Shown: positions 48,590 to 49,347 of the stretch, one piece after another
Layout of the letters: every line of letters starts with the position of its first letter
How positions within the stretch are numbered: the first letter of the stretch is position 1
Assembly (NCBI RefSeq): GCF_025999835.1
Contig: NZ_AP025628.1
Location: forward strand, 1,736,001 to 1,800,000
DNA: 64,000 nt
Direction of reading: 5' to 3'
From: Caldinitratiruptor microaerophilus
GTDB taxonomy: Bacteria > Bacillota > Sulfobacillia > Symbiobacteriales > ZC4RG38
Position numbers and translations under genes: made by a program
The notes under the pieces: generated by a model
What the model was told of the DNA's origin: nothing
Databases searched by the model: none
The model's input: the letters and a program-made list of their open reading frames with translations, nothing else

Positions 48590-49255
48590 TCAGTGCTGAT
48601 GGTGCTGGACGGCCTGGCGCAGGGCGGAGATGAACATCGACTCGGGTACCCGGCCTTCGAACGAATGCACGTGATCGCCGACCTTGATGATCGTCTTGGG
48701 GACGGCGTACACGCTGTGTTCCCGCGAGTAGTCGGGGAACTCGGCGGCGTCGATCATCGCCCCGCGGATGCGAGGGTTCACCATGGCCGCCATGTGAGCC
48801 ATGCGCACGGCATGGGGGCAGTGCGGTCAGGTGGGGGTCGTGAACACCTCCAGGACCACGTCCTGCTGGATCGCCTGGATCGCCGCCCGGCCCTGCTGGC
48901 TCAGGTCGTCCTTGCCGGTCGACAGGTCGACGATGTCCTCCAGGAGCGGCATGAACTCCCGGCCCAGCGGGGCCCCGTAGAAGCGGATCCCGCGGTCGCG
49001 CCCCTCGGGGTCCAGCAGCAGGAGCGCCGGAAGGCGGTCGATCACGTACTGCGCTGCCTCCGGGCTGCCCGCCGCGTACTCCTCGAAGGAAAGCTTGTCG
49101 GTCAGCTCGGCCAGCTCGCCCATGAGCTCCCGGGTGGCATCCACGTACGGGTTCCCGCCGCCGGGCTCGGCGACCAGGATGGCCTTCACCGGCCGCTGGA
49201 GCTGCCCGAAGTAGGCCCGGACCTGGTTCTTGTTCGCCTCGGTCATGATCGGCAC
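48590..49255 (-). CDS. Selenocysteine-containing protein disulfide oxidoreductase (PDO, two thioredoxin folds)
   Basis: 222 codons including the final stop if the in-frame TGA at 48829-48827 is read as selenocysteine (residue 143). The motif is then T-P-T-U-P-H-C-P-H-A, i.e. the CxxC site of the second thioredoxin unit with Sec in the first position; the reading frame continues with proper PDO features 'YAVPKTIIKVGDHVHSFEG' (cis-Pro) to the end. The first unit (residues about 15-120) has lost its CxxC. PDOs are ~220-230 residues and reduce or form disulfides in the cytoplasm, often in thermophiles. GTG 49255 has AGGAGG eight bases upstream. Alternative: a nonsense mutation or sequencing error. 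Confidence 0.85.
48799..48829 (-). promoter_or_regulatory. SECIS-like hairpin after the in-frame UGA
   Basis: After UGA (48829-48827), CCATGC (48815-48810) pairs with GCATGG (48804-48799), loop CGTGC containing GU at nucleotides 19-20 after the UGA. In E. coli fdhF the GU of the apical loop is at about nucleotides 20-21, so the spacing fits a SelB-binding bacterial SECIS. Confidence 0.65.
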
Positions 49256-49347
49256 CGGCAACACCTCCTCTGCCTCGTGATCACCGGTGCCCACGGAGGA
49301 TGGCCCACGCCCTCCCCCGGCCGCGACCGAGCCCCGGCTTGCCCTTC

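Follow-up and report, generated by a model that had tools for sequence, protein, structure and literature searches.

The stretch of DNA analysed here (64,000 nucleotides from Caldinitratiruptor microaerophilus, below called the window) carries on its minus strand a predicted selenoprotein gene (48590..49255) for a two-unit thioredoxin-fold protein disulfide oxidoreductase (PDO) of family TIGR02187. The gene starts with GTG, preceded at a distance of 7 nt by the Shine-Dalgarno sequence AGGAGGT (49263..49269, minus strand), and ends with TGA. The frame from 49255 to 48590 comprises 221 residues plus the stop, and its sole internal stop is a TGA at 48829-48827, on the first residue of the second thioredoxin motif. 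The translation around this codon reads VFTTPT-U-PHC-PHAV, with residue 143 as the putative selenocysteine (Sec) of a UPHC redox motif (Sec143-Pro-His-Cys146; 48818..48829, minus strand) and the resolving Cys encoded at 48820-48818. Beyond the TGA the frame remains family-conserved up to the cis-Pro of a VPK motif (Pro186, codon 48698..48700, minus strand), which faces the UxxC and is invariant in the family alignment, and then ends normally. The N-terminal thioredoxin unit contains no CxxC, unlike that of a canonical two-centre PDO, and U143/C146 would therefore be the sole redox pair of the protein. An earlier note on this DNA had described the interrupted frame, its continuation into family sequence and the Sec site as only centre; its coordinates proved exact, and these points held throughout. 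While a standard gene caller would cut the protein short at residue 142, the Sec reading corrects the annotation. An isopropylmalate dehydrogenase gene lies upstream and a convergent subtilase gene downstream, both ordinary table-11 genes. These neighbours gave no clue to a partner reductase, and a search for a phage link of the gene found none.

The protein matched the NCBIfam model TIGR02187 (PDO_seleno_TRX) with 206.4 bits, above the curated cut-off of 185, residues 6-214 aligning to positions 2-208 of the 209-position model. Pfam Thioredoxin_3 matched over the second unit, spanning the TGA. The AlphaFold model (pLDDT 96.2) has a double thioredoxin fold, and its best PDB match was the P. 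furiosus PDO 1A8L (TM 0.92, 40% identity); the nearest solved structures are the Pyrococcus PDO (1A8L, 1J08), the Aquifex PDO and AhpF N-terminal domains. The fused flavin/NAD domain of full-length AhpF is absent, the 221-aa protein stopping after its second thioredoxin unit, and against the AhpF model the protein scored far below the cut-off.

The genome, a single 3.6-Mb contig, was found to hold the complete set of Sec decoding genes for which a search had been proposed in the earlier note: selA (595 bits), selB (376 bits), selC, i.e., a tRNA-Sec with anticodon UCA found by both Infernal and ARAGORN, and two selD genes, both above the model cut-offs. Each selD gene itself has an in-frame TGA where the catalytic Cys/Sec is encoded (KAGUGCK and GSGUACK), so that Sec decoding is to be expected at other loci. 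They are located at G000:C1:2013538-2014461 (-) (L131) and 1648211-1649131 (+) (L132), one of them directly after selA. On its strand, selB is preceded at a distance of about 150 nt by a thioredoxin reductase gene (G000:C1:250741-253665 (+); L133, L156), and the two possibly form one operon.

A search of 61 related genomes yielded 29 TIGR02187 genes, the window gene included, which were read through the TGA. The active-site column, whose alignment had likewise been suggested as a check, held TGA in 22 and Cys in 7 of these members and no other residue in any; the 21 TGA-bearing members besides the window gene are spread over many families and were assembled separately. Maximum-likelihood phylogeny placed the window protein in a supported group (100/97) that also contains four Sec proteins, all from the neighbouring Symbiobacterium family of the same order. 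All four of these nearest relatives carry the TGA, and an N-terminal CxxC is present in none of them (0/4). Identity to close relatives was 47-52% downstream of the TGA compared to 36-45% upstream, and substitutions were biased to third positions on both sides.

The same genome encodes a second Sec paralogue, which has two centres (CQYC and UPYC; G000:C1:3266543-3267193). A further, divergent paralogue has Cys (CPRC; 1129531-1129935). In the locus G000:C1:3265638-3267193 (-) (L130), the two-centre Sec paralogue is followed by the gene of a CoA-disulfide-reductase-like flavoprotein. This flavoprotein reached 427 bits to TIGR03385, under the 579-bit cut-off, and is a candidate electron donor. 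Genomes of one genus (G029, G048, G060, G239) contain as many as three Sec-PDO paralogues each (L143, L146, L150-L154), some of them with a long linker joining the thioredoxin units and with another SECIS register. Within another such group, a single genus, the close PDO relatives L021 (G051) and L022 (G033) carry Cys (TGC) and Sec (TGA) at the active site, respectively; their downstream sequences are nearly identical, indicating a recent Sec/Cys switch.

A SECIS-like hairpin of 6 bp (CCAUGC/GCAUGG; 48799..48815, minus strand) starts 11 nt past the UGA, the same distance as in E. coli fdhF, and exposes a G in its small apical loop CGUGC. The earlier note had drawn attention to this hairpin with its GU-containing loop at an fdhF-like distance, and the comparison of homologues bore it out by covariation, not by energy. 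Neither dinucleotide shuffles nor synonymous-codon controls made its folding energy stand out (z about -0.1), and over 50 nt of the window sequence the MFE structure was a different one. As thermodynamic folding was uninformative for the window, covariation was used instead. When 25 distinct Sec sequences were compared, 88.7% of cells were paired; shuffling lowered this share to 80.6% and sliding the register to 26-49%, and the covariation score was 0.301 versus 0.138. Seven double-sided changes were counted in these sequences, six of them at pair 18-28. At this pair the relatives have G-C (CAG...CUG, Gln...Leu), while the window gene has U-A (CAU...AUG, His...Met); the paralogue L027 shows CGU...ACG, and L028 AGC...GUU. 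With these compensatory codons the amino-acid changes track the RNA pairing.

All six pairs were kept in 20 of 29 distinct Sec sequences but in only 6 of 83 distinct Cys sequences, a contrast that partly reflects relatedness and GC content, since the Cys set is wider in phylogeny and composition than the Sec set. The Cys sequences were collected by a contig scan with a seed pattern starting at the Cys codon and thus comprise Cys forms only. Outside this stem register are the Sec genes L022, L031 and L033 and some paralogues. RNAalifold gave nearly no consensus energy for all Sec sequences together; for the five Symbiobacterium-type genes a consensus energy was obtained. Rfam scans of the window and of the gene returned no SECIS match, and the SECIS_1 model was silent in every control genome as well. 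On these comparative grounds we regard the hairpin at 48815-48799 as genuine and SECIS-like. The homologues (22 with Sec, 7 with Cys), together with the three paralogues of a single genome, offer a compact set on which to examine how a SECIS within coding sequence constrains the surrounding protein.

Could the TGA be a recent nonsense mutation or a sequencing error in an ordinary Cys PDO, making the gene a pseudogene or an artefact? TGA is one base away from TGC and TGT, and Cys homologues exist; yet the shared TGA column in separate assemblies and in every nearest relative, the coding-type conservation downstream and the covarying hairpin all argue against such an accident, which we consider very improbable. 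The earlier note had also judged a chance nonsense mutation unlikely at this codon, and the distribution of TGA and Cys in the family agrees with that judgement.

The frame would equally be open in any code in which TGA is a sense codon, and the UGA might be decoded as another amino acid (e.g., Trp, code 4) or passed by generic stop read-through. However, homologues without the TGA have Cys and never Trp at this column, the genome encodes the full Sec pathway, TGA also occupies the Sec positions of two selD genes and of the second PDO, and the neighbouring genes follow table 11. This explanation is hardly tenable. UGA decoding is generally in competition with termination, and on this general ground the gene might yield regulated dual products, a 142-residue N-terminal unit when selenium is scarce and the complete protein when it is abundant, each with a function. 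The 142-residue product, however, would be devoid of any redox motif, and we found no sign that it functions independently; two functional products therefore seem improbable.

Selenocysteine is thus the reading supported by the sel genes, the homologue column and the covarying hairpin. With a probability of roughly 95%, the window gene encodes a double-thioredoxin-fold disulfide oxidoreductase in which a UGA-encoded, SelB-decoded Sec forms the sole-centre Sec-Cys pair. Computation establishes the gene, the TGA column, the decoding machinery, the covarying hairpin and the fold; the actual insertion of Sec, the substrate and the reductant are inferred. The product would be a cytosolic enzyme of the PDO or AhpF-N-terminal-domain type with its redox pair U143-P-H-C146 in the second unit, and cytosolic thiol-disulfide exchange is its most likely function. 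SelB would decode the UGA with Sec-tRNA(UCA), guided by the hairpin. The target of the Sec selenolate might then be a disulfide in a substrate or, in a peroxiredoxin, the peroxidatic residue in its oxidised state, and Cys146 would resolve the mixed selenosulfide. The oxidised Sec-Cys pair could be re-reduced by a flavin reductase, for example the thioredoxin reductase of the genome (404 bits).

The history of the gene is more tentative. The Symbiobacterium-type lineage may have lost the N-terminal CxxC and kept the C-terminal Sec; the resulting seleno-PDO with one centre would have separated in function from the two-centre Sec paralogue and from the Cys paralogue of the same genome, and the SECIS hairpin may also have dictated residue changes near the active site (Q..L to H..M, R..T, S..V). 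We hold the chances of this scenario to be about even.

Among known systems, the PDOs of P. furiosus (1A8L) and Aquifex aeolicus (2AYT) likewise consist of two fused thioredoxin units with a C-terminal CPxC site. They have Cys at the active site where the window protein has Sec, and each contains two CxxC centres, while the window protein has a single redox centre. The N-terminal domain of AhpF is closer in this respect, with two thioredoxin folds of which only the second bears a redox pair, and it matches the window protein structurally with TM 0.80-0.85 (1ZYN, 6IL7); in contrast to it, the window protein stands alone, without a flavin domain, and Sec replaces the first Cys. The family itself is already catalogued. 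A 2026 review lists the 'Homolog of AhpF N-terminal domain (Grx-like domain protein)', TIGR02187, UxxC, as a high-confidence predicted selenoprotein (Table 1; PMC13188914), and a 2006 survey gives the same TIGR02187 family for Symbiobacterium thermophilum and Carboxydothermus (Tables 1 and 3; PMC1794560). The window gene adds a member to this selenoprotein family, known since 2006 and also from the same order, and does not found a new one. It lies above the family cut-off and has the same UxxC position as the catalogued proteins, but comes from another organism and, as in the Symbiobacterium-type relatives, is missing the N-terminal CxxC.
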